Source: a virus
Length of the DNA: 64,000 nt
Strand: one strand, 5' to 3'
IMG/VR virus record: IMGVR_UViG_3300034158_000023
Location: 1 to 64,000 of that record
Position 1 is the stretch's first letter, and each line of letters starts with the position of its first letter. The notes below the pieces were generated by a model, which was not told the DNA's origin, did no database searches, and worked only from the letters and a program-made list of their open reading frames with translations. This document shows positions 37,590 through 60,442 of the stretch, piece by piece. The position numbers were made by a program, and so were the translations under genes.

Positions 37590-38030
37590 ATGGAAATTAT
37601 TTTAGTAGTAGTAGGAAACCGCGATTACGATAACTATGAGTTCTTTTGTAAGACCATGGATCGTTACATCGCTCACTTTGGTTATGACATTCGCAAGGTC
37701 TACAGTGGTGATGCTCCTGGTATTGATCAGATGACAGAAGACTGGGCTTTATCACGTGGCCATAAATTCGAAGCTATCCCAGCGGTATGGCAATTACCAG
37801 ACGGTACAACTGATCGTGGTGCAGGTATGAAGCGCAATGAAATATTGGTAGCTAAAGGCACTCACGTAGTAGCATTCTGGGATGGTAAATCAACTGGTAC
37901 TAAACACTCTAGTGGCCTAGCCAAAGAGTTAAATAAAACGCGCATGATCGTACCTATCGTGGCGACTAAGAAGCGTTATTATTGTGCTCGTTGGAAAACA
38001 ATTTACGCAGAACGTAATAAGGCGGCATAA
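37590..38030 (+). CDS. SLOG-fold (YspA/DUF2493-type) nucleotide-binding protein
   Basis: 146 residues. Rossmann-like fold of the SLOG superfamily (YspA / cpYpsA-related): opening strand I-I-L-V-V-V-G-N-R-D-Y, the S-G-D-A-P-G-I-D loop at about residues 44-51 followed by helix E-D-W-A, and G-A-G-M-K-R-N-E-I-L then V-A-F-W-D-G-K-S-T-G-T in the C-terminal half. These loops bind nucleotide-derived ligands; other SLOG proteins sense or process nucleotide signals (for example the ThsA SLOG domain binds a cyclic ADP-ribose). Here the ligand is unknown; phage copies are usually annotated as unknown. GGAG five bases upstream. Stop and next start overlap. Confidence 0.85.
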   Translation: MEIILVVVGNRDYDNYEFFCKTMDRYIAHFGYDIRKVYSGDAPGIDQMTEDWALSRGHKFEAIPAVWQLPDGTTDRGAGMKRNEILVAKGTHVVAFWDGKSTGTKHSSGLAKELNKTRMIVPIVATKKRYYCARWKTIYAERNKAA

Positions 38031-38698
38031 TGGGCAATCGCGCAGCATTCGTTAAATCTTTTTTAGCCGACCTGGATGCTATCTGTCCAGGTCATGGGAA
38101 TGAAACTTTCTATGTGCCGTTCTTTGATAGTTTAGATGATAAACAATTCGAAGCTATGGTTGATGCCATTGTAGCCGAGGACTTGGTATTACCGTTAGTG
38201 TTACCTAACGGGAAAGATGCTAACCTAGATGCTAAACGCAACATCGCGCTAGGTCGTAAGTGGGGGCATGAATTCAGAGAGCAGGTATGGCTTACAGATC
38301 CTGTTAATCCAGGGTTAGTTAAACTAACACCACTGAAGTACCTGATCATCAAACTACCAGTACGCCGTCAAGCTCAGACTTTAGAAGATAAACAAAGTAT
38401 CCCTAAAGATGACCATTCGATCGATGACTTGACTGGCCAAGTTTCTAATGAGTCTAAAGGTAGTGGTATCTCTGGCCCAGAAGCACAGATCCTTTACTCG
38501 CATGACTTAAAGGCTGTGTTAATAGAGTATTTGAAAGTCCGTGGTGGTGATGAAACGGCGTATCGTAAGATGTCTTCAGATCTCATCAACTCAGGGGTAG
38601 CATCACTTACTGATGCGGTTAGTCAAGACAGTAGACCTACCTCAGTGGTTAACTTATCCACGATGTTAACCTGTGCACACATAGGGAATAACTTATGA
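38030..38698 (+). CDS. Putative C-terminal fragment of virion RNA polymerase beta subunit
   Basis: 222 residues. The middle and C-terminal parts follow the order of the RpoB C-terminus: V-W-L-T-D-P-V-N-P-G-L-V as in the strand-turn before the conserved V-G-Y-M-Y, then P-L-K-Y-L-I-I-K-L-P-V-R-R-Q in place of M-L-K-L-x-H-L-V-x-D-K, then T-G-Q-V-S-N-E-S-K-G-S-G-I-S-G-P-E-A in place of T-x-Q-P-L-G-G-K-A-x-F-G-G-Q-R-F-G-E, then a helix S-H-D-L-K-A-V-L-I-E-Y like M-E-V-W-A-L-E-A-Y. The large beta-like protein at 52403 stops just before this region, so the two together make a complete beta. phiKZ also splits beta (gp178 + gp149). One-base overlap with the SLOG gene. Confidence 0.68.
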   Translation: MGNRAAFVKSFLADLDAICPGHGNETFYVPFFDSLDDKQFEAMVDAIVAEDLVLPLVLPNGKDANLDAKRNIALGRKWGHEFREQVWLTDPVNPGLVKLTPLKYLIIKLPVRRQAQTLEDKQSIPKDDHSIDDLTGQVSNESKGSGISGPEAQILYSHDLKAVLIEYLKVRGGDETAYRKMSSDLINSGVASLTDAVSQDSRPTSVVNLSTMLTCAHIGNNL

Positions 38699-39210
38699 TC
38701 GATACACGTAGATTAGTAGAGATCTGTGATTGGATTATCAATCGTCGAGCAGTGAATCCTGAACACGAGCATCAGCTAAATTTCGTTGCACTCATTCGTG
38801 GTTTGCGTGAAGGCACTTACATAGCCAGCGTAATCAGTGATTCAGGGCTAAAGGAACTGTGGGCTAAGTTAGACGAGTATGAAGAAGGTCAAGCTACTAT
38901 ACTTGAATGTACAGCTGAGCTTAAAGTACTGAGTGGGTTATCTGTGGATGACTGGAGTGATTTGTGTCGTCATATCGGTAGTAGCTGTACATACAACACT
39001 ATCGTGAAAGGTCGCTATCAAGACGCAGTTGAACCAGATAAACTCTATGCTGCTATCCCCACAGATACCAGAACTCAGGTTTTCCCTACGCAGCAAGCAG
39101 AAGCTTTAGTGGAAGCAAACCACTGGTTTGTGTTTATAGTACTGATGTCCTATGGCACTAGTCGACTGGGAGTAAATCTAAATGGTAAAGTTAAGTCCAT
39201 TAGTAAGTAA
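38695..39210 (+). CDS. Hypothetical protein
   Basis: 171 residues, overlapping the previous gene by four bases (ATGATC over the TGA), so co-translated with the putative RNA polymerase fragment. Helical and acidic; a C-terminal hydrophobic strand F-V-F-I-V-L-M-S-Y is too short for a reliable membrane helix. Its end overlaps the next gene by 29 bases. Unknown function. Confidence 0.72.
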   Translation: MIDTRRLVEICDWIINRRAVNPEHEHQLNFVALIRGLREGTYIASVISDSGLKELWAKLDEYEEGQATILECTAELKVLSGLSVDDWSDLCRHIGSSCTYNTIVKGRYQDAVEPDKLYAAIPTDTRTQVFPTQQAEALVEANHWFVFIVLMSYGTSRLGVNLNGKVKSISK

Positions 39211-39934
39211 CTACTTACTAGATCTAGATAGCTTATTCGATACCAGACTAGGGGTACTTAGTTTGTTAGGGGATGATGCAGTAGATTCACTAACGCATGA
39301 TAACTATGCTAAACGTGAAGACGAAAGTTTCCTAATGGCTATCCCAGGGTACAAGGAACGATGGGAGGCAAGAGACATAGAAGTGTTGCAATCCTCCCAA
39401 GTATCTAAGTTCTTTGCTACGGCAATGCAGTTGATTCTAGATGACGTTCATGATGTCAACGTGTCACTACCAGATAGAAAGTTCTTTCTGTACATAAACA
39501 CGTATCCGTATAAATTGAACGATATCGAGAAAGAAGATCTTGTGTTAATGGTATCTGCTCAGCTACACGGTAGAGTTAAAGTTACCACTAGGAGTTTTAG
39601 TCTAGGGGCATTATCTCCTAGAACTATAGCTTCGAACTGCTATGGTCTAGTGTCGATATATGAGTTTGAGAAATGGGTAAAGCTGCACATAGATGCACTT
39701 TATAAACTGTCTTTAAGTGAGGTAGTTGTAGTAGCTCCAGAGTTAAAGGAAATAGGTGCTAAAGTAATTGAAAAACCTACGGAACTTATGTTACAACTAT
39801 TAGAACGATACTCTAAGTGGGAATGCTTAGAGTTAGCGCTAATGGAAGTACTAGCTTTGAAGTATTACCCAGTCGCCGAGTATTGCAGTTTGCTTTATTT
39901 AGCGCACATAACCGAGCAAAAAGAGGAAGGGTAA
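39182..39934 (+). CDS. Hypothetical protein, possibly virion-associated
   Basis: 250 residues. Starts inside the previous gene with GGGAG 12 bases upstream. Helix-rich with a beta centre (K-F-F-L-Y-I-N-T-Y-P-Y-K and L-V-L-M-V-S-A-Q-L). No transmembrane segment or signal. Last gene of the cluster that begins with the SLOG protein. Not recognised. Confidence 0.72.
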   Translation: MVKLSPLVSNYLLDLDSLFDTRLGVLSLLGDDAVDSLTHDNYAKREDESFLMAIPGYKERWEARDIEVLQSSQVSKFFATAMQLILDDVHDVNVSLPDRKFFLYINTYPYKLNDIEKEDLVLMVSAQLHGRVKVTTRSFSLGALSPRTIASNCYGLVSIYEFEKWVKLHIDALYKLSLSEVVVVAPELKEIGAKVIEKPTELMLQLLERYSKWECLELALMEVLALKYYPVAEYCSLLYLAHITEQKEEG

Positions 39935-44517: not shown

Positions 44518-47500
44518 TCACACGTTGCGAGCCATAGAGACCGCAGGTTTAGGCGCATCACTCGGTTGTCTTGCTGAGTTAGGCTTAGACGGTGGAGCCA
44601 CTCCAGATAAAGCCGCAACCATTTTATCCAAACTAGCCGCCATGCTTTTCTGCACACTCAAGCTCTCTGTAAGAACAGAGTGTACTTGTTGGACAGTTTC
44701 AGCCATAGCTGTACTAGATAGAGTTTGCTGCGAAGCAGCTTGGTTACGTCTTAACTCTTCCCGCTGATCAATCGCGGCAAGTCTGGAAGGAGCAGTAGGT
44801 CTTGATGGTTGTTGTGGAGCAGGCGCTCTAGTAGCCGAAGCTGCTTGAACTGCCTCTGCTGTTGTATTACGAGGATTCCCTCTTTCAGGAGCAGCCATAG
44901 CTACCGCTGTGTCTTCTGCTTGGGGTTTAACCTTAACAGATGCACTAGGGCTAACCCCAGCTGACTTACGGCTTGCTACTTGTCCAGTTGCACCACTAAC
45001 CTTAGCATTTAAGATTTGATAAACTTCATCCACTGTACGCTGACGTGCACCATCGAAGAAGATGGCTTGGTTAGCAGCACTAGCCGCAGGCATCACCATA
45101 GCAGCAGAAGCATTACGATCAGCATTTAAGAACTTAGTTGCACCACCTGCACCAAAGAAATGCGCAGCGTACAACTCAGTATCACCAACTGACTTACCTG
45201 TAGTTCTTTCTAGATAAGCTTTGTTGGACTTCAGATACTCCGCACCTAACAAACTGTTTGCAACAGGATCATCAGGTGTAGCGTTCTTAGGAATCCCATA
45301 CTTCTCAGCATGTTTACCCATTTGCTCTTTCCAGGTGTCCTTAGTGAATTGGAATAACCCAACTGCACTACTAGCGATTTTACCGTTCTTATCTCTAGAT
45401 TGAACACCTATGCGGTAACTAGATTCTACCCCAGCTACTGATAATGCTATCTTCTCATCAAACCCTACGGCATTAGCTGCCGCACTGATAGTAGGTTGTA
45501 CCCGTACATAACCATCACCTGTAGGAACTGGGATGTTTCTGTAGATACCACCTTCACCATTACCTGTATCACCTACCTGCGTTATAGCCTCCTGTACCGT
45601 GTCCTGTACCGACTTAGGTGGAGCAACTGGTACGTTAGGTGGTAACAATGGAGAGTTGGGAGTAAACGCTTTCTTAGCAGCCGCATCAGCTTGGTTCTTA
45701 AGCACGTAGGCTTCGGCTTGTGACTTAAGACCAGTGTTAGTAGACATAGCTTTCTGTGACTCTGAACGCTTACGCATCATCTCAATGTTTTTCTCCTCCG
45801 CGCTACGGGTGTCCTTGGTAGGAACATTACCGATTTGGTTAGTCTTAGTTGTGGCTTTAGGATCACTTGTAAGTTTGATTTTCTCTAAGAGACCTTCAAT
45901 CACACTAGTCCCTCGTTGAATCTCACTATCTGGGAATATGTTCTTGGCGTAAACATAATAAGGACCCATGAACCCAGTAGAAGACATAGTCTTCTGAGCA
46001 TAGGCGTACTTAGTAGCTTCCACTAGTTTACTATCCACATCTAGCAACTCACATGCAGCGTCGTGTATCTTTAACGCAGCAAGGTTACTTAAGAACACTG
46101 GTTTAAAGCGCCCTTCGTACCAATCACTTAAAGCTTTAACGTTAACTGGGTTAGAAGTATCGCAACCCATAACCTCCAGGATTTTATTCCCTTCAGATTT
46201 ATCGATTGAAATCCGTACAGGTTTATTACCTTCCCATACTACCTTCTTCGCCAACAACCGTTCTAGTTCAGCCACACGAGTACACGCATCTTTATCCTCT
46301 AGACTAACACCATACTGAGCCATACGTAACTGATTCAGTAATCCGATTTGTCCTTTGAAGTATTTATACGTGTAATAACCAGCCACTGCTAAAGCACCTA
46401 CAGCCACCGCTCCTAGCACTACAGGGACGCTTACCACAGAGGCAATAGCACCAGCAGCCCAGATACCACCACGCAAAGCCCAACCTCCAGCTGATAGTAA
46501 ACCACGACCTACACCCATAGCACCACGACCTAAGCGTTTTAGCAACCCAGCTTTACCTTTAGGTTTCTTCTTAGTCTTATCCCCATCAGGGCCATCGCCT
46601 AATTCACCTAAAGCATCCGCAGCTGCACCAGCACCTTTAGCTGCCACTAGCGCAGCACCAATACCTTTTACGGTACTCCATATACCAGATAAAGTACTGA
46701 CGATACCCATTAAAGGCATCATTAAGCCATTACCTTCCTTAACGTCTGGTCTATGTGGCCCTGTGAACGCAGGATTAGCCTTCTCAGCCTGTTTTACTTT
46801 ACGCGCAGCCATGACTGAGGCATAGCTATTTGCTCTCGTAGAATCGCTTGCTAGGCGGTCTTTGATACGATCACGAATAGACGTATAAGGCTTAGAGGTT
46901 TTAGTTTGGTCTTTCAAGCTACCATATAAACTTTTCAGTTTATCTAGGTTACCATAACCTTCACCTTTCTCTTTACGGTCAGATGCCATTCTACGCATGA
47001 CTCTACCACGAATACCTTTAACTGTATTCCCAACAGTGTCTTCCATCCCGATTTTATCTTTGATGGCTTGCGCAGTTTTAGCTCTCTTCTCTCTAAGGCT
47101 TGCTACAGTAACATCTATGTTAGCACGATACTGTCCTAGCTTTTCGTCGTCAAATCCATGCTCTGCTAACTTAGCCTTACCTTCTGCTATTTTAGCATCC
47201 TTAAACTCTTTAGCTTTAGTCTTCAGGTTGTCACGTATTCTTTTAGTGCGACGCCACTTCTTAAGTCCATCTTTAAACCCTTTCTTAACTCCAGCGAAGA
47301 CCCCTTTGATTCCGGGACCTTTTGGGCCGTCAGAACCATCGCTAGGAGTAGGCTCCATGGGATCACCCATTCCGTACTTTGAACAAAGTAAGTTATAGAT
47401 GGCTTTTAGTACGTTGATGTTCTCTATCTGGTAATGAGTGCTTGCACGCCCAGGACCAAAGATCCCACCACCTAGACCACCAAAGCCTCCTTTAATGCCT

Positions 47501-50500
47501 CCAAATAAGCCGGATAACGCGCCTCCTGCCTTATCCAATAACCATCCAGCACCACGCTTAGCGGCACCTAAAGCTTTACCTGCCAATTTAAACGGCGCAG
47601 ATAACACTCCAAGAGCTCGATCACCATTCGATCGTACTGGGTTCCCTTTGTAATCAACTACGCCTTTGACGAACTCGGAGTAGTACAGTACTGGTTTATC
47701 TGATTGATCTTTGTGGAATACATCTGTTTTAATCTCCCCTACGCTAGACAATGGTTTACCAGCTGTGTCGAAGTACGTTTGACCGCCATCCAACAACTTA
47801 CCAATAATCCTTGGACTAGTTTCACCTGGCACAAAGATGTCAGGAGCAGCTAGTACCTTATCCTTAATAGATTTTAAAACATTGTACATGCCTCTAGCAG
47901 GAGCAAAAGCTAAACTTACAGCTTTACCTCCAAGTCCTAAAGCCGTGTCAAATAACTTTGCAGCTCCAGTTTTGATGGGTTTCCAAGCGCTGTCATACAG
48001 ACCAGCTTTAAACTGTTCTAACGTAAGTACAGTTTCTTCTTTCCCATCAACTATTTTAACTACAGCCCCTTTGATATCATTAATGGACTTAATGACCTTC
48101 TTAGTTACCGCATCAAAATAAATGCCAGCTCTCATCCCCTCAGCAGTTAATGCAGGATCCTGTTTACCAGGGATCTTGATGTCCATTACCTTACCGAAAA
48201 GAGCACTACCAGCCCACTTAATTGCCTTAAGTGGTAACTTTGCTAAACCCCATGCACTTCTAGCACTAAACTTACTAGCACGCCATCCAGCACTACCAGC
48301 TCGTTTTGCACCTCTCCACCCTAATTTTGCAGCCCTTGAAAAGAAACCTCCCTTGGGCTTACCTATAGGTTTACCGTCACCAGTACCACCACCATTACCT
48401 TCTACCCCGATATTCATTACGGCAGCTAAGATATCATTTAGCGTTTGTAACATACTGACTGAAGTCTCTCTACTAGAAGCGGCTTCAATTGCTGTCACTA
48501 CACGATCAATGTGCGCGTCTAACTCCATGTTACCTGAAGCAACTGATTGCTGTTGAGTAGAGGTAGTACCAGGGGCATTGTCTGCACCTAGCATCCAAGT
48601 CTTTAACTTGTGGAAGATACCGCTAGCCACAACCTCCGAATCCACCGAAGGGCTAGCAGCGGCAGCTGGTATAGGAGAACTACCAGGACCCACGTTAGAA
48701 AGACCACCATGTCTGCTGTTATCAAAACTATCATCCACGCTGCGCTTAGCCAATAACGTATCAAGGACTTTCTCATAGTCTTGATCCTTATCGCGATAGT
48801 TTCTTTGAAATTCATTAACTGAGGATTCTTTTAACGATTCTCTCCCTTTGTCGTTTTCAAGTATCCCTAGCTTTCTGACAATATCTTGGTACCCTAAATT
48901 GTAATACAATGTCGCGTTAGCTTGAGCACCATTTTCAGTGGTGGCCATGTTACGATATAAAGTATCTAAAGAGGTATGTCGCTTTTGCGCTGCGACTGAA
49001 CCTATTTTGGTTTCTCCCTTTTCATCTAAATCTAGAGAAGTTAAGAATTGCTTGGCGATTGCTGCCGCATTCTCGTCCGTAGTGTACTTGGCAAAGTTAC
49101 CAGCCTTAATGAAGTCTAATGGATCGAATTCACTTTTCTCTGTTACTCTTTGCTGTAGATACGATTTAAGGGCTTTCTGTTGCTCTGGGGTAAATGCTTT
49201 CTCATCGAAATACTCAAGGAAAGAATTACTTTGCCATTCGCGGTTTTCTAAGTCGTCCTTCTTGAAAATCTTGCTAGCTATTTTCCTTGTTAATGCAGAT
49301 TCTCCAATGAACCCTCTACCCTCGTAATCCCAACGAGTTAATTCAGGAAGTTCACCTGTCCTAATACCTTCACTTGATTGTAAGATCCTAGATAGTAAAC
49401 CAGGGATAATGTCAACCAAGGTTAAGTGAGCTTTGTTAGTGAACATGCTAGGACCCATAAGGTCACTGATGTTACTTTGAGCCACTTCTCTGTTTCTACC
49501 TTGAGTAGGTACAGCTTGTTTCACTGCATCTACAATGCTACCCCACAAACCAAAGTTTTCAGTAGGACTCTGTGCCCACTTTCTGACTTTGTTAGGGATA
49601 GAACTTCTAAGTCTGGCTAACTGATGACCGCGACCTACCAGCTTCTCATTTTTTGCTAAGTATGGTCTAAGTTTGCTGCCTACCATTCCTGCTAGGCTCT
49701 GGCTAAGTACACCACCTACCATTTTACCAGTAGCTTCAGTTGAGTCCTCACCACCATCTACAGCCATTTGCTGCATTTGTTCGAACTGTTCTTTTAGATC
49801 AACTGCTGTTTGTACGTTACCTACGAAATTACGAATACCTGTTTGCCCAGCTGTCTTTAAGTTATTAAAGAACTGGGAAACGAAAGGTCTAAACCCACTA
49901 GTCATAGACTGCTGGATCTTACCTGTTAAAGCATCGCGGAATTGTTGTTTAACGGCTTCACTAGAAGACAGTTTAACAAACTCTGGTAACCCGGTGTTCT
50001 TAGCAATGTTTTGTAACAGTTCTAAGGTTTTACCAGTTGAGTCAGTAGCTATCTTCAGCATATCACGCTGAGCAAAATAACTTCTATAACCTAGCTCTAA
50101 AGATTTTCTTTGGAATGCATTAGTTACAGTGTCTTGATATGCTACGAGTTGGGCTAAATTACTTTGAATAGCAGAGCTAGATTCTAGCGTAGCTGAGTGA
50201 CGTTTAGTGTCTACCAAATCACGCATGGTATCACGAGCACGGTCTTCAGTCTGCGCTTCAGTCTGCGCTTTAAAGATCTCACCTAACTCAGTAGCTATCT
50301 TAGATTCATCAATCTGTTCTTGAGACAACGTAGGAGTGGAAGGACGGCTATCGTCTTCTATTAAGTGATCTAGTCGCTTAGAGAACCACTTAGGCATCAC
50401 AGGTTCGACTTTAGGTTTCACGTAACGCATGAAACGTTTCATCTGCCTAGTGGCTGGGCGTATCTCTTTCTTTAGCTCATTGTATAGTCCGACGCCTTCT

Positions 50501-50742
50501 GACGTAACGTCGTCAACTGAATCCCAAACGGAACCGTATTCTTTGGGTAAGGCATCTTTTAAAATAGATTTATAGAAAGAAGGTGTTTTCGCTTCTTCTA
50601 CGATACCTTTGAATATACCGCTACCCATTTTGGTAACTGGTTTTCTATCGTCTTTTGGTGGTGTACCACTATAGTCACCATCCCATTCATCGAAATCATC
50701 TAGACCAAAATCGTCTAAATCGGTATTCTTTTTCTTACTCAT
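44518..50742 (-). CDS. Giant virion protein with lytic transglycosylase domain
   Basis: 2074 residues from ATG 50742 (M-S-K-K-K-N), with a weak GGAA site. Probably cuts peptidoglycan during DNA entry, from inside the virion. SLT domain near residues 1755-1880: V-A-G-V-E-S-S-Y with catalytic Glu1773, G-L-F-Q-F-T-K-D-T-W, and Y-A-A-H-F-F-G-A-G-G-A. A cluster of hydrophobic Ala/Gly/Val helices near 1425-1465 is membrane-active or channel-like. A middle region (about 840-1130) repeats a basic amphipathic Trp/Lys/Gly segment followed by a Y-F-D-x-x-x-K...E-F-K-x-G-x-x-D module. Length and position beside the beta' gene match phiKZ gp181 (2237 residues, from memory). Tail-tape role possible. Confidence 0.9.
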   Translation of the reverse strand: MSKKKNTDLDDFGLDDFDEWDGDYSGTPPKDDRKPVTKMGSGIFKGIVEEAKTPSFYKSILKDALPKEYGSVWDSVDDVTSEGVGLYNELKKEIRPATRQMKRFMRYVKPKVEPVMPKWFSKRLDHLIEDDSRPSTPTLSQEQIDESKIATELGEIFKAQTEAQTEDRARDTMRDLVDTKRHSATLESSSAIQSNLAQLVAYQDTVTNAFQRKSLELGYRSYFAQRDMLKIATDSTGKTLELLQNIAKNTGLPEFVKLSSSEAVKQQFRDALTGKIQQSMTSGFRPFVSQFFNNLKTAGQTGIRNFVGNVQTAVDLKEQFEQMQQMAVDGGEDSTEATGKMVGGVLSQSLAGMVGSKLRPYLAKNEKLVGRGHQLARLRSSIPNKVRKWAQSPTENFGLWGSIVDAVKQAVPTQGRNREVAQSNISDLMGPSMFTNKAHLTLVDIIPGLLSRILQSSEGIRTGELPELTRWDYEGRGFIGESALTRKIASKIFKKDDLENREWQSNSFLEYFDEKAFTPEQQKALKSYLQQRVTEKSEFDPLDFIKAGNFAKYTTDENAAAIAKQFLTSLDLDEKGETKIGSVAAQKRHTSLDTLYRNMATTENGAQANATLYYNLGYQDIVRKLGILENDKGRESLKESSVNEFQRNYRDKDQDYEKVLDTLLAKRSVDDSFDNSRHGGLSNVGPGSSPIPAAAASPSVDSEVVASGIFHKLKTWMLGADNAPGTTSTQQQSVASGNMELDAHIDRVVTAIEAASSRETSVSMLQTLNDILAAVMNIGVEGNGGGTGDGKPIGKPKGGFFSRAAKLGWRGAKRAGSAGWRASKFSARSAWGLAKLPLKAIKWAGSALFGKVMDIKIPGKQDPALTAEGMRAGIYFDAVTKKVIKSINDIKGAVVKIVDGKEETVLTLEQFKAGLYDSAWKPIKTGAAKLFDTALGLGGKAVSLAFAPARGMYNVLKSIKDKVLAAPDIFVPGETSPRIIGKLLDGGQTYFDTAGKPLSSVGEIKTDVFHKDQSDKPVLYYSEFVKGVVDYKGNPVRSNGDRALGVLSAPFKLAGKALGAAKRGAGWLLDKAGGALSGLFGGIKGGFGGLGGGIFGPGRASTHYQIENINVLKAIYNLLCSKYGMGDPMEPTPSDGSDGPKGPGIKGVFAGVKKGFKDGLKKWRRTKRIRDNLKTKAKEFKDAKIAEGKAKLAEHGFDDEKLGQYRANIDVTVASLREKRAKTAQAIKDKIGMEDTVGNTVKGIRGRVMRRMASDRKEKGEGYGNLDKLKSLYGSLKDQTKTSKPYTSIRDRIKDRLASDSTRANSYASVMAARKVKQAEKANPAFTGPHRPDVKEGNGLMMPLMGIVSTLSGIWSTVKGIGAALVAAKGAGAAADALGELGDGPDGDKTKKKPKGKAGLLKRLGRGAMGVGRGLLSAGGWALRGGIWAAGAIASVVSVPVVLGAVAVGALAVAGYYTYKYFKGQIGLLNQLRMAQYGVSLEDKDACTRVAELERLLAKKVVWEGNKPVRISIDKSEGNKILEVMGCDTSNPVNVKALSDWYEGRFKPVFLSNLAALKIHDAACELLDVDSKLVEATKYAYAQKTMSSTGFMGPYYVYAKNIFPDSEIQRGTSVIEGLLEKIKLTSDPKATTKTNQIGNVPTKDTRSAEEKNIEMMRKRSESQKAMSTNTGLKSQAEAYVLKNQADAAAKKAFTPNSPLLPPNVPVAPPKSVQDTVQEAITQVGDTGNGEGGIYRNIPVPTGDGYVRVQPTISAAANAVGFDEKIALSVAGVESSYRIGVQSRDKNGKIASSAVGLFQFTKDTWKEQMGKHAEKYGIPKNATPDDPVANSLLGAEYLKSNKAYLERTTGKSVGDTELYAAHFFGAGGATKFLNADRNASAAMVMPAASAANQAIFFDGARQRTVDEVYQILNAKVSGATGQVASRKSAGVSPSASVKVKPQAEDTAVAMAAPERGNPRNTTAEAVQAASATRAPAPQQPSRPTAPSRLAAIDQREELRRNQAASQQTLSSTAMAETVQQVHSVLTESLSVQKSMAASLDKMVAALSGVAPPSKPNSARQPSDAPKPAVSMARNV

Positions 50743-50774
50743 AATGACATTCCATATAAAGGGAGTAACATAGC

Positions 50775-52406
50775 ATGAACCATCCGCTACCACCATTTAA
50801 CGTTTGGTTGATTACGCCTGAAACTCAAGCATTAAAATCTACAAGGTCTGTAAGGGTATTAGACACCTTTGATAGTAGTGGTAGTCTGTTCCATCCCGAC
50901 GGTTTATTTAGTGTGGAGACCTTTGGTCGTCAAGGTTCCCCAGAGCGTGATAAAACTATTTCATACGTAGCATTAAACACTACGATTTTACATCCAGAAG
51001 TATTCGTAACACTAAAAAGACTTCGTGCCTTATATATAGGCATTATAAGTGGTAAGCGTTACGCTGTCTGGAACGAAGTAGATAAAGACTTTGATCCTAG
51101 TGACAGTGCAGATGCTAAAACTGGATTTAGCTTTTTTATTTCGCATTTTCCAGATATCGTATTTAAGCGTAACAACTCAGACGTACGTAACTTACGTATT
51201 GATCTAGTAGAGAAGTATCAAAACAAAGCGTTACTGACTAACCATTTGATTTTACCAGCTGGTTTACGTGATGCTTATGTAGCCCCTGATGGACAAGTAT
51301 CTGAAGATGAGATCAACGATCTTTATCGTAAACTGATTTCTACTTCGACTACTATATCTAACTTAGAAGAAAACAAAAACTCTCCTAACTTGGATACTTC
51401 AAGATGGTCTTTACAGTTAACTGCTAACTCTATCTTTGAGTATATCGTTAAACTTCAGATCTCTGGTAAGCGTGGATGGTTCCAACAGAAGTTTGGTAGC
51501 CGTAAGACTCGTAACGGCTCTGCAAGTGTTATCACTGCTATGACTACAGCTGTGCCTATGTTGGGTGCTCCTAGTGCTATATCAGTGACTGATACTGAGA
51601 TTGGTTTACTCCAGACTTTACGTAACAACATCCCTGAAGTAATCGGCTTATTAAAGCGTAATTGTTTTTCTAGGATCTTCAGTGAACAAGCTAGTGAAGC
51701 ATGGCTGATTAACCCTAAAACCTTACAACGAGAATTAGTAAACGTTTCCACCTATACGATGGACTTGTTTACCACGAACGAGGGGATAAACAAATTCGTT
51801 AACAGGTTCTTCCTAAGGGATATTCGTAATAACCCGGTCTTAGTAGAAAAACATTACTTAGGCTTAGTATATGTAGACAAACATAATTTTAAGTTGTTTT
51901 ATGACATTAACGAGTTACCTGAGCATTTGGATAAGTCTAATGTTTCTCCTGCTACGTTAGCTGACATATTACATTTAACTACGTATCAAGCTTTGAAATC
52001 AGCTTGTGGGACTATCACTCGTTATCCTATCACGGGTGACGGTTCTATTTACCCCACGTTTTATAAAACCAGAACAACCACTCTGACTAAATCTTTAATC
52101 CCCTTAGGGGATGATTGGCAACCTGTAACTGAGGAAGTGTGTTATAACTTCCACGACCGCAGTTCTAATGCAGAATGGATAGACAGTTTAACTCCTCACA
52201 TCACCAGACTTGTAGGTTTGGGTGCTGACTTTGACGGAGATAAAAACAACTCTCCTTCTGTTAATACCAAAGAAGCAAAAGCTGAAGTGAAGGCATACTT
52301 CTCTAAGAAAACTTCTTTCGTGGGTGCCAACGGTAGACTTTTAGTTTCAACCACAATCGATACTGTGGAACTGGTAGTTCGCAATTTAACAGGTGACGCA
52401 GAATGA
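50775..52406 (+). CDS. Virion RNA polymerase beta'-like subunit, N-terminal half
   Basis: 543 residues; GGGAG before the ATG. Multi-subunit RNA polymerase large-subunit half that carries the active site. P-D-G-L-F-S-V-E-T-F-G at residues 41-51 matches the zinc-region/clamp start of RpoC (D-G-L-F...I-F-G) without the cysteines; G-K-R-G-W-F-Q-Q-K-F...N-G-S-A-S-V (231-250) matches G-K-x-G-x-F-R-x-x-L...S-G-R-S-V; and A-D-F-D-G-D-K-N (484-491) has Asp485, 487 and 489, the three Mg-binding aspartates. It ends ~55 residues later with A-N-G-R-L-L, matching P-A-N-G-E-P. The rest of beta' must be encoded elsewhere, as in phiKZ (gp180 + gp80). Divergent from the giant gene with only 32 bases between. 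Confidence 0.9.
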   Translation: MNHPLPPFNVWLITPETQALKSTRSVRVLDTFDSSGSLFHPDGLFSVETFGRQGSPERDKTISYVALNTTILHPEVFVTLKRLRALYIGIISGKRYAVWNEVDKDFDPSDSADAKTGFSFFISHFPDIVFKRNNSDVRNLRIDLVEKYQNKALLTNHLILPAGLRDAYVAPDGQVSEDEINDLYRKLISTSTTISNLEENKNSPNLDTSRWSLQLTANSIFEYIVKLQISGKRGWFQQKFGSRKTRNGSASVITAMTTAVPMLGAPSAISVTDTEIGLLQTLRNNIPEVIGLLKRNCFSRIFSEQASEAWLINPKTLQRELVNVSTYTMDLFTTNEGINKFVNRFFLRDIRNNPVLVEKHYLGLVYVDKHNFKLFYDINELPEHLDKSNVSPATLADILHLTTYQALKSACGTITRYPITGDGSIYPTFYKTRTTTLTKSLIPLGDDWQPVTEEVCYNFHDRSSNAEWIDSLTPHITRLVGLGADFDGDKNNSPSVNTKEAKAEVKAYFSKKTSFVGANGRLLVSTTIDTVELVVRNLTGDAE

Positions 52407-55400
52407 TAGAGCCAGCTTTTGGTTTAGAAGATTTTTCTGACGGGTTAGAGTCCCTTCGCTATGAACACTACTATAGGAAGCATGGAGTCAAAACATTTAA
52501 GTCTTTGTTAGCTCCACGTTACTCCTCTATGGAAAACCTGGAGTTACCACTTAAATCAGTACTGCACTATTTACCTGAGTTGAGTTCAGAACTAGGTATT
52601 ATGCCAACTAACGTTTTCTTACGTAATCATAGTGGCATGATTCTAGTGCATAACGCCGAAGCGTATGTGGAGCCAGAAGGTACTCCTATGTTGGCTGCTG
52701 CTAAACCCACGCAGTTAACTTTGCAGTATCGTAAGGCAGCAAGATCACTACGTCCTATGCGCAGTTATGAAACTGCTTTCCGTAACGATAAAACCCTAGT
52801 GATAGAAAACTATTGTTTCTTAAATCACTTGTATCGTTATCGCAATACCTTTATGGCACGCATCTATAAGTTCAATAACTTGATGCGAGTATTTGTTGCT
52901 AAAGTAAATGAAATCGCTGAGATCTCTGATCGTAAGCAGTTCTTAGAACTACGTTTACCTAAGCAACAGATTCTATTGCAACGCTTTATAATGGGTAGTA
53001 AGAGAACCTCTCGTCAAACCTTAGGGTTCTTCCCAGATGATCACAGTTTGTTTCTTCTGGAACTGTGGAAGTTCATGGGTGAGAATCGTGAGACTAGTGC
53101 ACTAGCTGGACTTACACCAAAAGCTATAGCTTCTCTCCAGTTTGTGTTAATCGAGACTGGTAAGTACAACGTCCTTAGTTTAGGCTTACTAGAGAACTCT
53201 AGAGATGGCGCTAGTGAACCAGCATCCACTACTTATAAACCACGACAGATACAGTTAACGTTTTACAAGTATCTGAACTCTGGATATGAGTTACGTAACG
53301 TGGCTAACAAACAAGTAATCGAAGTTCGTGAAAACGAAAACGGGGAAGAAACTTTAGTTACTATCGGGGAAGATGGTGAAGAAACAGTTTTAGACGTTGA
53401 TTCAGTAGATGACTTAGATGTGATGACTGAAGCCGAAACTCAAGAAGCTATGGATGAATCTGAGTCTGGTCAAGAGATTGATTTTGATTTAGAGGATGAA
53501 CTCGATCCTGGGGTACAGGAAAGCGAAGTTTACATCCCTGTTGATGACAGTGACTTAGATGACGTACCAGTAGAAGTTACTGAGTTATCTGCTGGTGTAG
53601 TTGCTGAGTCTTTGAAGTTATTAGAGTTAGGGTTAATTTCTGCTGCTGCACATAAGCGCAATGAACAATTAGCCACTGCTTATAAGCGGATACCTAACCC
53701 ATGGGGTCAAGGTACTCTAGCTGATGCCATCGTGGTTGATCCTGCTAAGCTAGCTGTGCGTAATCCTAAATTCGTAGAAGACATATCGTTCGTTATGGAC
53801 AAGTCTATGTTGAAGTCTGGTCTTAAGAACTTCGACCGTGATTACGTAGATAACGTAATGAATTCTGACATTGCTGGTATGGTTGTTAACTTACAGAAAG
53901 CTGGAGTTATCATCCACAATTACCGAGTGGAAGAAAAGGAAGATGCTAACAACCACTTCGACGTACATTACGTACAGATGTCTTTAGTGGAAGGTAAAGT
54001 TTCTACTGTGGCGTTCCGTGTGCCTAGAGTAACCAAAGATGGTACCTTTAGAGCACGTGGTACTAACTATCGTTTACGTAAGCAGCGTGTAGATATCCCT
54101 ATTCGTAAAACTGCTGAGAACGAAGTTGGGTTAACGTCTTATGTGTCTAAGGTATTTGTAACCAGAAGCGTGATGAAAGTTCACGACTATACTTCTTGGT
54201 TACAGTCTCAGATTCTGCGTCAAGTGGAAGCTGGGGTTATCAAGCACGTCGACTATGGTAACGTATTCGACCGTACTGTTAAAACACCTAGAGCACATTC
54301 CACGATTGCTGCCAAATACACTATGTTTGCCGTAGGGGATCTTAATTTCGATTGGAACCTGAAAACGTTTACGGCTATGCCAGATATAGATGTGCCTGCG
54401 TTATTAAAAGAAGGTTTATGTCCTTGTGGTTTTAAAGGAAAGGAACTTTTGGTTATTGATACGTTAGGTGTAGTGTCACTGGGATCTACTTCTGAACCTA
54501 TTGGTAACATAGAAGAAATCCTAGGGATTGAATCGGCTAAAGCTCCAGTCGATACCATCTTTGTTAAGGTGTTAGATAAGCAGATACCCATTAGTGTTAT
54601 AATGGCGTACCACTTAGGTTTAACCAATTATCTTAAGTCGCTAAAGGTACCTTACCGTCTGGTGGCTAAAGGTAGTAAGTTAGATTTAACCCCAGATGAG
54701 TTTACGATCAAGTTCTCTGATACGACACTAATCTTAAACCGGAACCATCAGCGCAGTGCTTTAGCTGTAAGTGGTTTCAACGTGTTCAAGAAATCCATCT
54801 CTAAGTATCCGATGATGGAGTTCGACAGTGAAGACGTGTATGGTGCAGTGTTTGACCAAGAAGGACTGGGTGGTCGTTATTTACGTGAACTGAAGATCAC
54901 TAACGATTTATGGGTAGATCCTATTACGTTAGGTATTCTGGCTAAGCGTAAAGAACCTACTGAGTGGTTAGCTATCTTACGGTACAGTATTGAGTTGTTA
55001 ACTTCAGATACGCATCCTGCTGAAGGTGCTGGTACTATGCGTCGTACTCGTGGGTATGAACGTATCTCCGGTCACGTGTATTCTGAAATGGTTCGTAGTG
55101 TACGTAAAGCTAAATCTCGTCCACTTACTGCTAATGCTGCAATTGAACTGAACCCTAATGCCGTTTGGATGAACATTCAGAAAGACGCCAGCGTAGGTAT
55201 CGTCAACGAACTTAACCCAGTGGAGGAAACTAAAGAAGTCGAGTTAATGACGTTTGCTGGTAGCGGCGGTCGTACTGGCCGTACTATGGTACACTCTACT
55301 CGTGGTTTTGATCATGAAGACCTAGGTACTGTATCAGAAGCTGGTGTGGATAACTCGAACGTAGCAGTTAACACGTACTCAGTGCCTGATCCTAACATCG

Positions 55401-56608
55401 ACGACTTACGTGGTATGCGAGGAGACTGGATCTTCAACGTGGATGAAACTGCTCGCATTTTAAGTACCTCTACCTTATTAGGTGTTGGTGCAACTACCGA
55501 CGATATGAAACGCGCCGTGTTTAGTGGTGTGCAACATTCACACGTAGTTGCTACAGTAGGTTATGGAGTTTGTGCTGTACAGACTGGCTATGAAACTGTT
55601 TTAGCGCATCGGGTATCTGATACGTTTGCGGTTACTGTAGATAGTCCTGCAACTCTAGTCCATGTATCTAATGACCACATCGTTATTGAGTACGATGATC
55701 CTGATCGTCCTAACGATAAAATACCTATTGGTATCAAGTATGGTGTCAGTACAGGCCACGCTATCTTACATGATGTGATCTGTGATTTACCGCAAGGTAC
55801 TAAGTTGAAAGCTGGTCACGTGGTTGCATTCAACCGTGGGTTCTTTGCTCGTAACTATATAGATCCTTCACAGGTAACTTGGAAGACTGGTGCATATGCT
55901 ACCGTCATGTTGGTTGACGATGATGATACTCTAGAAGACTCCTCAGCAATCTCACCTGAGTTAGCTGGCAAACTCTTAAGACCGACTGTCGATTATCGTG
56001 AGGTAACTTTACGGTTTGATCAAGGGATTTTGGATCTAGTGAAGGAAGGGGATAAGGTAGAAGTTGACTCCATTCTATGTAGTATAGAGGATTCTGTCAC
56101 CAGTGGCGGTAACTTGTTTGATGACACCACCAAAGACTCTCTTAAATTACTAGCACGGAATACACCTAAAGCTAAAACTGTAGGGGTTATAGGTAAAGTA
56201 GAGGTTCTGTACTGTGGCGACACAGAAGATCTATCTCCTTCACTAGCCGAGTTAGTATTAGCTGCTGACAAGAAAAGAACCAAATATGCTAAGTCGATAG
56301 GTAGTAAAGTGTTGACTGGACAGGTAAACGATTTAGATCTAGATACTGTGAAAATCGGTATTTATATTAATCGTGAAACCAAGATGGCTGATGGCGATAA
56401 GTTGGTAGTTGGCAACCAGTTAAAATCCGTTGTTAAACGTGTTATGACTGGTAAGAATGAAACGCTGAGCGGCAAACGAATTGATGCTAAATTCGGCAAC
56501 CTAAGTGTTGACGCGCGGATAGTAGGTGGGCCTGCAAAAGCTGGAACTACTATAGTACTAGTAGAAATGGCAAACAAACGCGCCGCGTCTGCATATAGAA
56601 ACAAATGA
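52403..56608 (+). CDS. Virion RNA polymerase beta-like subunit, large part
   Basis: 1401 residues; start overlaps the beta'-N stop by four bases. Conserved beta regions in order: V-A-T-V-G-Y-G-V-C-A...D-S-P-A-T-L-V-H-V-S-N-D-H-I-V-I (about 1050-1095, like the K-R-x-G-x-V-x-x-V-D-x-x-x-I-V-I of RpoB); G-H-V-V-A-F-N-R-G-F and T-L-E-D-S-S-A-I-S with Glu1178/Asp1179 (F-E-D-A-I-L-I-S in RpoB); and G-D-K-L-V-V-G-N-Q-L-K with Lys1333 and Lys1341 in the exact K-x7-K spacing of the catalytic lysines. An ~85-residue Asp/Glu-rich insert lies near 310-400. The protein ends just after the lysines; the C-terminal clamp piece is probably the 222-aa protein at 38030. Confidence 0.9.
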   Translation: MIEPAFGLEDFSDGLESLRYEHYYRKHGVKTFKSLLAPRYSSMENLELPLKSVLHYLPELSSELGIMPTNVFLRNHSGMILVHNAEAYVEPEGTPMLAAAKPTQLTLQYRKAARSLRPMRSYETAFRNDKTLVIENYCFLNHLYRYRNTFMARIYKFNNLMRVFVAKVNEIAEISDRKQFLELRLPKQQILLQRFIMGSKRTSRQTLGFFPDDHSLFLLELWKFMGENRETSALAGLTPKAIASLQFVLIETGKYNVLSLGLLENSRDGASEPASTTYKPRQIQLTFYKYLNSGYELRNVANKQVIEVRENENGEETLVTIGEDGEETVLDVDSVDDLDVMTEAETQEAMDESESGQEIDFDLEDELDPGVQESEVYIPVDDSDLDDVPVEVTELSAGVVAESLKLLELGLISAAAHKRNEQLATAYKRIPNPWGQGTLADAIVVDPAKLAVRNPKFVEDISFVMDKSMLKSGLKNFDRDYVDNVMNSDIAGMVVNLQKAGVIIHNYRVEEKEDANNHFDVHYVQMSLVEGKVSTVAFRVPRVTKDGTFRARGTNYRLRKQRVDIPIRKTAENEVGLTSYVSKVFVTRSVMKVHDYTSWLQSQILRQVEAGVIKHVDYGNVFDRTVKTPRAHSTIAAKYTMFAVGDLNFDWNLKTFTAMPDIDVPALLKEGLCPCGFKGKELLVIDTLGVVSLGSTSEPIGNIEEILGIESAKAPVDTIFVKVLDKQIPISVIMAYHLGLTNYLKSLKVPYRLVAKGSKLDLTPDEFTIKFSDTTLILNRNHQRSALAVSGFNVFKKSISKYPMMEFDSEDVYGAVFDQEGLGGRYLRELKITNDLWVDPITLGILAKRKEPTEWLAILRYSIELLTSDTHPAEGAGTMRRTRGYERISGHVYSEMVRSVRKAKSRPLTANAAIELNPNAVWMNIQKDASVGIVNELNPVEETKEVELMTFAGSGGRTGRTMVHSTRGFDHEDLGTVSEAGVDNSNVAVNTYSVPDPNIDDLRGMRGDWIFNVDETARILSTSTLLGVGATTDDMKRAVFSGVQHSHVVATVGYGVCAVQTGYETVLAHRVSDTFAVTVDSPATLVHVSNDHIVIEYDDPDRPNDKIPIGIKYGVSTGHAILHDVICDLPQGTKLKAGHVVAFNRGFFARNYIDPSQVTWKTGAYATVMLVDDDDTLEDSSAISPELAGKLLRPTVDYREVTLRFDQGILDLVKEGDKVEVDSILCSIEDSVTSGGNLFDDTTKDSLKLLARNTPKAKTVGVIGKVEVLYCGDTEDLSPSLAELVLAADKKRTKYAKSIGSKVLTGQVNDLDLDTVKIGIYINRETKMADGDKLVVGNQLKSVVKRVMTGKNETLSGKRIDAKFGNLSVDARIVGGPAKAGTTIVLVEMANKRAASAYRNK

Positions 56609-56627: not shown

Positions 56628-56798
56628 ATGAATGAAAACACAGTAACACAGGTAGCAACAGTAGCCAACATCCAAGAAGCTACCTTACGTGTAATGGTCG
56701 CGGTTGTGGGTGAAGACATTGCTGCTAAACCAGAATCCGAAATGGCTGCTGATATCGCTGCTATGTTAAATCAAAAGTTGCAAGGAGTTAGAGCATGA
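56628..56798 (+). CDS. Small hypothetical protein (56 aa)
   Basis: 56 residues, in the gap between beta and the 468-aa gene, with a start overlapping ribosome-like GGGAATTAGAAA and a stop overlapping the next ATG as ATGA. Codon use is like its neighbours. Ala/Glu/Val-rich, one probable helix-turn-helix of two amphipathic helices; no motif. Translational coupling suggests that it works with or helps fold the next product. In phiKZ a small gene also lies between the vRNAP gene and the following head gene (from memory, uncertain). Confidence 0.7.
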   Translation: MNENTVTQVATVANIQEATLRVMVAVVGEDIAAKPESEMAADIAAMLNQKLQGVRA

Positions 56799-58201
56799 TT
56801 TCTGAAAACACTCGTCCTGGCATCGCCGCAGTTGTTTCTAATACACGTGACTCTAAGTTGATCCTAGAAGTCATGCCTAATACGCCATTGTCGCACTTGG
56901 TAGTTGAAACGACTCCTGTCGTAACTCCTACTGTAGGGTTAGAAGCAGAAGCCGTATACCAACAAACTGAACTTACTGATATCACTGGTGTTAACCGCCA
57001 TGAAATGGTCTTAGACGAAGTTGTAGGCACTCTAGGCGAAGCTATCGTCGAACAGATGCGTATGGTTCGCTGTGACGTTATCCCAATGGTTAAACGTGTC
57101 ACTAGCTTAGCTATTGACGCAGCCAATGAAGTTAAGTTGGGTGAATACGTTATTGAAACGTTCTTCTTGTCTGAGATCCATGACAACGAAGCTATTGTAG
57201 AGTTACTGTCACGTTGGGATAGTTTCCCTGCTGGTAAAGTTATTTCGCCTATCGGTTTCCAGAAACTGGAAGAGTCTGAGGTCATCGCGTTAGCTGCTAC
57301 AGGTAGCCCTCGTTTAGATGAACCTATGGCTGAGATGATTGGTAAACATCCTGCTGGTTGGGCAACAGCTGTTTATGAAGAGTACTTTGGTATTACTGAT
57401 GTGAAAACATTCACTCCAGTAGTGCAATTGAATTCCATGGATGAATGGTTGCTAGCGCATTTCATTGCGCGTAACTTAGCTGATAACCCACAAGAAGGTA
57501 GTGGTTTAAGTTTACTTAACCATAACAACTTCTGTGCTACTTTAATGGCACAGTTAGCTGTGGCAATGACTTCTACTCACAAGAACTGGGATTTCCTACG
57601 TACTTCAGGTAGTTTAGTATTAAGTTGGCCTATTGCTACTGATATCCCAATAGATGCAAAATCTGCTGTGATTCAAGTGATTGGTGACAACTACAACAAC
57701 TTCTTAGGTGCAGGTGGTAGTCCTGAGATCTTAATCGGTGCTAGCATGGACGATCGTCCTTACTCTGGTGCTGCGTTCACTACTAACTCTGAGCGTTATC
57801 AGAAGCAGTATGTGGCGTATAAGAACCGTTTAGCTATTTACCGTGAACGTCAGTTAGGCGGAGTATTACGTACTGCGCTAAATATTGAAATCGCTAAAGA
57901 GGTTCTGACTTTACCAGAAGGCCTATTAGAGAACAGCATCTCTATCGAGAAGATGCAAGCGCATGTAACTGGCTTACTGGGTTCTAAGTTAGACCATGAG
58001 TTAGTGGGTGATCTGTACATGGTGGCTCGTGAAGTTATCTGTAAGGTTATCTACGGACATACATCTGCATTAGAGATAGCGGAAAAGATTGACGCCGTTA
58101 TGACTAAGCGCTCATGTGATGGTCGACGTGCTGCTTATTACGTAGCGATTGATTTACTGTTAGAGTACTGGTTAAACCAGACTACGCCTAAATACCAATA
58201 A
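56795..58201 (+). CDS. Probable head structural protein
   Basis: 468 residues; overlaps the small upstream gene by four bases, GGAG ribosome site. Mixed alpha/beta, with a 180-residue beta-rich N-terminus, a basic/aromatic centre (H-K-N-W-D-F-L-R-T-S-G-S), and a helical C-terminus. No membrane segment. It lies between RNA polymerase beta and the prohead protease, where phiKZ has gp177/gp176-type virion genes; no P-loop or protease motif. Could be a minor capsid or inner-head protein. By position only. Confidence 0.7.
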   Translation: MISENTRPGIAAVVSNTRDSKLILEVMPNTPLSHLVVETTPVVTPTVGLEAEAVYQQTELTDITGVNRHEMVLDEVVGTLGEAIVEQMRMVRCDVIPMVKRVTSLAIDAANEVKLGEYVIETFFLSEIHDNEAIVELLSRWDSFPAGKVISPIGFQKLEESEVIALAATGSPRLDEPMAEMIGKHPAGWATAVYEEYFGITDVKTFTPVVQLNSMDEWLLAHFIARNLADNPQEGSGLSLLNHNNFCATLMAQLAVAMTSTHKNWDFLRTSGSLVLSWPIATDIPIDAKSAVIQVIGDNYNNFLGAGGSPEILIGASMDDRPYSGAAFTTNSERYQKQYVAYKNRLAIYRERQLGGVLRTALNIEIAKEVLTLPEGLLENSISIEKMQAHVTGLLGSKLDHELVGDLYMVAREVICKVIYGHTSALEIAEKIDAVMTKRSCDGRRAAYYVAIDLLLEYWLNQTTPKYQ

Positions 58202-58216
58202 CACTAAGGGGTCACT

Positions 58217-58942
58217 ATGGACGTTACAAAACTGAAGCGTGACCCTAAAGTAGTTATAGCTAGTTTAAAAACCCTGCCAGATGGTAGGGTTGTGACTTTA
58301 ACTGGGTGTCACATGCATATTCCTGCGGAGTATGTAGATAAGCAAATTGCTTTCTTAAGTGGTGCTCAGAAGTCCACACTAGGTATTTTCGCTTTAGTGG
58401 TGGGTGACTCATATGGAGTGTGGTCTACGCCTAACATGTACACGATTGAACCACAAGAGTACAGTCGTATTATGATTGGCGAAGAAGAGTATATCGAATG
58501 CTATTTTCCAGAAGGGTCTACCGTATTTACAACGCTTAACGTAATTATGATGGACAGCTTAGCATATGAGATATATGACTTATACGCAGATACTGATATT
58601 AACCCTTGGTTTCTTAGTTACTTTGATAGGGCTGCCATTCTGGATGACACTAGCCACTATCTTGGTGCCTCATTTGGAGCGAAGTGGTCTATTCTAAAGA
58701 TGGTCTGGGCATTCACTGCAAGATCTTCCAAAGACAGAACTAAGTATTGGCGTAACCAAATAAAAACTCAGCAGGATACGATAACTATCAGGCCATCTTA
58801 CATCCCATTCAAAAGTGTTATCTATGGGCCTAAGACTACAACTGCTAAATTAATGGGTGCGTATTTTGACTTAGGTCTTAATGCTGCTTTAGTTAACCCT
58901 TCTGAGAAATCAGACGACATGGAAAAGATGCTGAGGTTATAA
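58217..58942 (+). CDS. Probable virion-associated protein
   Basis: 241 residues, AAGGGG ribosome site. Beta-rich N-terminal half (V-V-I-A-S-L-K-T-L, G-C-H-M-H-I-P, G-I-F-A-L-V-V-G), helical middle, and a tail rich in K/S. A hydrophobic aromatic patch M-V-W-A-F-T-A is short. One-base overlap with the next start (TAATG). Corresponds by order to a gene between phiKZ beta and protease. Function unknown. Confidence 0.7.
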   Translation: MDVTKLKRDPKVVIASLKTLPDGRVVTLTGCHMHIPAEYVDKQIAFLSGAQKSTLGIFALVVGDSYGVWSTPNMYTIEPQEYSRIMIGEEEYIECYFPEGSTVFTTLNVIMMDSLAYEIYDLYADTDINPWFLSYFDRAAILDDTSHYLGASFGAKWSILKMVWAFTARSSKDRTKYWRNQIKTQQDTITIRPSYIPFKSVIYGPKTTTAKLMGAYFDLGLNAALVNPSEKSDDMEKMLRL

Positions 58943-59683: not shown

Positions 59684-60442
59684 ATGTCTAAACAAACTAT
59701 CGCGTTTGGTTGTACTGCTTTAATGGGTACTAACAAAGGCGGGATCTTAAAGCCTGATGCTGATGGTTATTATACCGTTATCTTAGGCGCACTAGATTTT
59801 GAGAACTCTTATGGTGCCGTCTATCCTTTAGTCAGCGCTAAGGAAATCTTTAAAGAGTCTAGTGGCTTTATGCGTCGTTTGCGTAAAGGTTATTGTCGTG
59901 GTGAATACGGGCATCCTAAAAGACTGCCTGGACAAGATCACGATAGTTTCATTCGCCGCATTATGACGATTGAAGAAACTCGTATCTGTATGCATATTGC
60001 TGAGGCGTGGATCGATTATGATTCTGTGCAACATCAAGGCAAGAAGATAGTTACCATTTGGGGTAAGATTCGTCCAGAAGGCCCTTACGGTGCTTACCTG
60101 AAAGAGTCGTTAGATAATCCTAAGTGTAACGTAGCGTTCTCTCTGCGTAGTATCACTTTAGATGAATACATCAATGGTCGTTTACATAAGAACATCGATG
60201 ACATCGCTTGTTGGGATTTCGTGGTAGAACCTGGTCTAGCTGTAGCTAACAAGTACGCCAACCCTGCATTAGAAGAGTTCTCTACTGTTGCGGTACCTAT
60301 CAGCATGGTTAAACATTTAGTGGCGCAGGAAGATGGTCACTTCGGTTTAGAGTCTGCTGACATGTTACGAGAGTTAGTAACAAGGGTAGAAGCACAAAAT
60401 CCTAAGGCAGCTTATAAAGTTGCTCCTAGCGCAAACTGGTAA
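59684..60442 (+). CDS. Prohead protease (S80 family, T4 gp21 / phiKZ gp175 type)
   Basis: 252 residues. Serine protease that trims scaffold, capsid and packaged proteins during head maturation, often at E-rich or S-x-E sites. The family's two motifs are clear: Y-C-R-G-E-Y-G-H-P-K-R with His77 (T4 gp21 G-E-L-N-H-P) and V-A-F-S-L-R-S-I-T with Ser153 (T4 V-S-S-R-G-L-G-S). Asp178 in C-W-D-F-V is a plausible third residue. Size as T4 gp21 (212) and phiKZ. GGGG ribosome site; operon-final, with a GCAA-loop hairpin seven bases after the stop. Beta-sheet core, soluble. Confidence 0.92.
   Translation: MSKQTIAFGCTALMGTNKGGILKPDADGYYTVILGALDFENSYGAVYPLVSAKEIFKESSGFMRRLRKGYCRGEYGHPKRLPGQDHDSFIRRIMTIEETRICMHIAEAWIDYDSVQHQGKKIVTIWGKIRPEGPYGAYLKESLDNPKCNVAFSLRSITLDEYINGRLHKNIDDIACWDFVVEPGLAVANKYANPALEEFSTVAVPISMVKHLVAQEDGHFGLESADMLRELVTRVEAQNPKAAYKVAPSANW

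Follow-up and report, generated by a model that had tools for sequence, protein, structure and literature searches.

A virion RNA polymerase (vRNAP) built of five subunits is already known (PMC5694885, PMC7598289), and gp180 and gp178 of phage phiKZ are among the proteins recognized as subunits of such an enzyme (PMC8287921, PMC10612078). The vRNAP of phage SPN3US consists of gp240 (β′N), gp241 (βN), gp42 (β′M), gp218 (βC) and gp244 (β′C), the last of which is encoded next to the prohead protease gp245 (PMC5694885). The subunits assemble prior to packaging (PMC5694885), and the phiKZ head carries about ten polymerase molecules (PMC10612078). After injection, early genes are transcribed, including those of a second polymerase (PMC7598289).

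Here we analyzed a window of 64,000 nt, which is part of the 215,386-base virus record IMGVR_UViG_3300034158_000023, with a focus on two overlapping genes. This pair almost certainly encodes the core of a phiKZ-like virion RNA polymerase, an enzyme of five polypeptides. The enzyme itself is already well known; the present one is a further member, from a distinct lineage of the phiKZ-like family. The two genes are as follows.

50775 to 52406, plus strand: vRNAP β′-N subunit, 543 aa, ATG start; orthologue of phiKZ gp180 and SPN3US gp240, with DFDGD at residues 485-489
52403 to 56608, plus strand: vRNAP β-N subunit, 1401 aa, ATG start; orthologue of phiKZ gp178 and SPN3US gp241, with E1178-D1179 and K1333/K1341

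Reading frames and family membership of the pair

Both open reading frames described in an earlier note on this DNA are present, and they share the four bases ATGA at 52403-52406, an overlap that could couple the translation of both subunits. Where the two genes are adjacent in relatives (about 90 cases, with start codons picked mechanically), the junction shows an exact four-base overlap in 10, another overlap in 14 and a gap of up to 30 bases in 61. As short gaps and overlaps vary among relatives, the four-base overlap is not a defining feature.

The best family of the 543-aa protein is PHROG 2986 (E=2e-178) and that of the 1401-aa protein is PHROG 3148 (E=0, 1380 bits), both named “RNA polymerase beta subunit”; Pfam alone did not recognize the 1401-aa protein. 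Relatives of each of the two proteins occur in 295 of 50,697 phage records, every one below 60% identity. The closest relative of β′-N is found in Serratia phage KpHz_2 (about 43% identity), and those of β-N in Xanthomonas phage LucasX and Klebsiella phage Eowyn (35-36%). The tblastn orthologue of β′-N in phiKZ, gp180, shares 33.7% identity with it. At the nucleotide level, megablast revealed neither a near-identical genome nor a close relative. Scanning viral contigs with a single sequence found no relative, and scanning them with alignments found 346 and 277.

Catalytic residues and structural similarity

Profile alignment by hhalign showed that nine β′-N proteins match E. coli RpoC over residues 22-357 (P=7e-8) and 446-516, with DFDGD lying upon DFDGD. 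The catalytic motif pointed out in the earlier note is thus at the expected place, and none of its residues D485, D487, G488 and D489 varies among 79 aligned β′-N proteins. The PDGLF...FG motif was likewise found, at residues 41-51, and the protein indeed stops just after the catalytic loop, 54 residues beyond D489, at a position corresponding to about RpoC 516. It is an N-terminal piece of β′, as had been proposed; the accompanying idea that β′ comes in two halves has to be replaced by a division into three pieces, N, M and C.

A profile of 15 β proteins aligned residues 933-1375 with RpoB 514-1109 (P=1e-7, hhalign), in which D1033/D1034 coincide with RpoB D674/D675. The acidic pair E1178/D1179, within the sequence EDSSAIS at residues 1178-1184, falls on RpoB E813/D814, and the two lysines of K1333-x7-K1341 are aligned with K1065/K1073. 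Across 65 β proteins, D1179, K1333 and K1341 are invariant, and position 1178 is Glu in 62 and Asp in three. The cross-comparisons of β′-N against RpoB and of β-N against RpoC gave no match. Judged from the sequences, the near-invariance across homologues indicates that the named motifs are not chance occurrences. The identification of the 1401-aa protein as β stands, but the label is incomplete, because the protein ends near RpoB 1135, without roughly the last 200 residues of β, and is β-N only.

Single-sequence searches of solved structures gave a weak match for β′-N and none for β. With larger profiles, hmmsearch matched β′-N to AR9 β′ (2e-17) and to bacterial β′ (~1e-10), and β-N to β chains (Thermus thermophilus, E=6e-15). 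AlphaFold predicted both structures with good confidence, at a pLDDT of 87.6 for β′-N and of 88.1 for residues 561-1401 of β-N. Foldseek placed the β′-N model closest to the β′ of the AR9 non-virion RNA polymerase (nvRNAP; E 5e-17), followed by cyanobacterial and bacterial β′, and the β-N model closest to T. thermophilus and other bacterial β subunits (E 2e-25). No solved structure from the virion polymerase of this family was among the matches of the PDB search. Global TM-scores were 0.34 and about 0.5. Such modest values are to be expected when flexible subunits of several domains are modelled alone. The sequence identity in the Foldseek matches is 12-15%.

Such low identity to solved enzymes, together with the naming of the orthologues as head proteins in the phiKZ record, could suggest a piece of polymerase that has decayed or been recruited and lacks catalytic function, for example a structural head protein. 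However, none of the catalytic residues has been lost and they hardly vary within the family, neither reading frame is disrupted, and the genome encodes the other subunits, which makes this explanation very improbable compared with a working polymerase core.

Remaining subunits, gene order and the second polymerase

The other subunits and the neighbors of the pair are listed below.

38030 to 38698, plus strand: vRNAP β-C subunit, 222 aa; orthologue of phiKZ gp149 and SPN3US gp218
44518 to 50796, minus strand: phiKZ gp181-like tail protein with a transglycosylase domain; PHROG 3201, E=2e-266; divergent neighbor in relatives too
56631 to 56798, plus strand: small ORF of ~55 aa, at the position of phiKZ gp177.1; placed by translation and gene order, boundaries approximate
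56795 to 58201, plus strand: head protein, 468 aa, at the position of phiKZ gp177 and SPN3US gp243; PHROG 3841, E=1.5e-45; resembles the proteins at the same place in relatives
58217 to 58942, plus strand: putative vRNAP β′-C subunit, 241 aa; orthologue of phiKZ gp176, at the same position as SPN3US gp244
59684 to 60442, plus strand: prohead protease, 252 aa; orthologue of phiKZ gp175 (40.1% identity); adjoins β′-C in relatives too
Genome positions 151163 to 152455, outside the window: vRNAP β′-M subunit; orthologue of phiKZ gp80; PHROG 2962, E=1e-120

The 222-aa protein, which the earlier note proposed to model together with the pair, belongs to PHROG 3233 (E=4e-69), shares 35.7% identity with gp149 and has relatives in 273 phage records. 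Its profile matches RpoB 1161-1311 (P=1.6e-4, hhalign), and no match to RpoC was found by hhalign. The protein is β-C, as both its orthology to gp149 and its alignment to RpoB rather than RpoC indicate. Just downstream, at 39182-39934, lies a gene for a phiKZ gp147-like protein, and the gp147-gp149 neighborhood of phiKZ is kept.

For β′-M, a weak match to the bridge-helix region of RpoC was found (P=0.026). The protein encoded at 58217-58942 belongs to PHROG 2926 (E=1e-63) and shares 35.3% identity with gp176. Because direct profile comparison with RpoB and RpoC detected no similarity, its role rests on the assignment in SPN3US (PMC5694885) and on gene order, by analogy with which it is probably β′-C. 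Searches of the record, which may be incomplete, for α, ω and σ70 (PF01000, PF01192, PF04542) found none, with positive controls. Together, the pair, β-C, β′-M and probably β′-C would form a five-polypeptide core without α or ω.

The order of a tail protein on the minus strand, β′-N, β-N, the small ORF, a gp177-like protein, a gp176-like protein and the protease is common to phiKZ and most of 16 relatives. In its listed form, the gp181-like ORF shares 22 bases with the start of β′-N. Its translation probably begins 18 codons further in, at a Met near 50742 (MSKKKNTD), which would leave a short divergent intergenic region. Elsewhere, the genome encodes a complete non-virion polymerase (genome positions 128049-143660 and 184024-185634), with orthologues of gp55, gp68, gp71-73, gp74 and gp123 found by tblastn and PHROG. 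In addition, a gene for the nuclear shell protein (chimallin) lies at genome positions 126134-127972 (PHROG 4795, E=6e-53), which fits the nucleus-forming phages of Chimalliviridae.

The second polymerase raises the question of whether the pair itself might be of the non-virion type (phiKZ gp55/gp71-73). Both enzymes have a β′-N with DFDGD and a split after the first barrel, and β′-N weakly matches the nvRNAP family PHROG 2987 as well as AR9 nvRNAP β′. Nevertheless, the match to PHROG 2986 far exceeds that to PHROG 2987 (E=4e-5), a separate complete nvRNAP set is present, and the pair is flanked by head genes arranged like gp175-gp181 of phiKZ, so that a non-virion assignment is hardly credible. 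Orthology, gene order, profile alignment to RpoC and RpoB, and structure prediction all agree with the virion-polymerase arrangement of phiKZ (gp180/gp178). Nothing observed pointed to the structural outcome that the earlier note named as refuting, with the aspartates or lysines away from a double-psi β-barrel active site. Altogether, the earlier note was correct in what it observed and largely correct in what it took this to mean.

As a virion polymerase, the enzyme would hold its catalytic magnesium by DFDGD of β′, with the ED pair and two lysines of β completing a two-barrel active site. By analogy with phiKZ and SPN3US, it is presumably packaged in the virion: the five subunits would be assembled into the head before packaging and injected together with the DNA, after which the enzyme would transcribe the early genes, the non-virion polymerase genes among them.

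Group I intron sites and comparison with known polymerases

Of 170 loci, 16 show an interruption of the match to β′-N at about residues 485-489. The first phiKZ exon ends with GAD and the second, past gp179, starts with FDGD, and between them Rfam detects a group I intron (92 bits). Across the relatives, including phiKZ, group I introns between the first D and the F of DFDGD are placed at L010 (31397-31718, minus strand) and L069 (8472-8755), the latter short and without an ORF (85 bits). The equivalent site of the present phage, at 52227-52232 between codons 485 and 486, is empty. With DFDGD split by the intron, gp180 as annotated in phiKZ terminates at the first D of the triad. In the literature searched, we found no description of an intron in gp180, although an earlier report, for example in the 2014 phiKZ transcriptome paper, is possible.

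Two more sites lie in β. At residues 564/565, in the conserved DIPIRK motif, group I introns are found in L177 (8211-8693) and L085 (12669-13126). At residues 1034-1036, by the DD pair, they are found in L069 (12980-13301) and L062 (12811-13120), and this site is the intron site of PhiPA3 gp210 (PMC11620839). The match in L069 is broken at all three vRNAP sites, with Rfam introns at two of them. By contrast, the present phage is continuous at all three, and a search of the 64-kb window for group I introns gave no hit. We consider it likely that the vRNAP genes offer three functional sites as a recurrent homing ground to group I introns, with the present phage representing an intron-free lineage in which all three are empty. 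As for the non-virion polymerase, the equivalent of gp71-73 is a single ORF of 697 aa (genome positions 139554-141647; L006, 554-2647), and its phiKZ counterpart is broken up by gp72 together with a group I intron.

Phages like phiKZ, with an annotated gp180 that breaks off after the first residue of the triad, gain a full-length reference from the uninterrupted β′-N. Moreover, the intron map extends the case of PhiPA3 gp210 to further sites where phages may compete via homing endonucleases. The genome also contributes another complete set of two polymerases, at only about 40% identity to its nearest relatives.

Compared to the bacterial RNA polymerase, the subunits are collinear with RpoC 22-516 and RpoB 514-1109 with the catalytic residues aligned, but the enzyme is probably divided into five polypeptides and no α, ω or σ70 family member was found in the record. 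The nvRNAP of phiKZ and AR9 shares the DFDGD barrel and the split site after the barrel, and AR9 β′ is the best solved-structure match of β′-N; however, in the present genome the nvRNAP is encoded by other genes, and its β is split elsewhere. The probable five-piece architecture is that of the SPN3US vRNAP. In SPFM16, a relative of SPN3US, β-N has an identical length of 1401 aa, despite only about 30-37% sequence identity to the present phage. In phiKZ, a group I intron with gp179 separates the catalytic codons of gp180, whereas the gene here is uninterrupted and has a four-base overlap with the next. Nevertheless, all subunits of the phiKZ vRNAP (gp180, gp178, gp149 and gp80, with gp176 as the presumed fifth) have orthologues here at 31-36% identity, and gp180-gp178-gp177-gp176-gp175 and the divergent gp181 follow in the same order.
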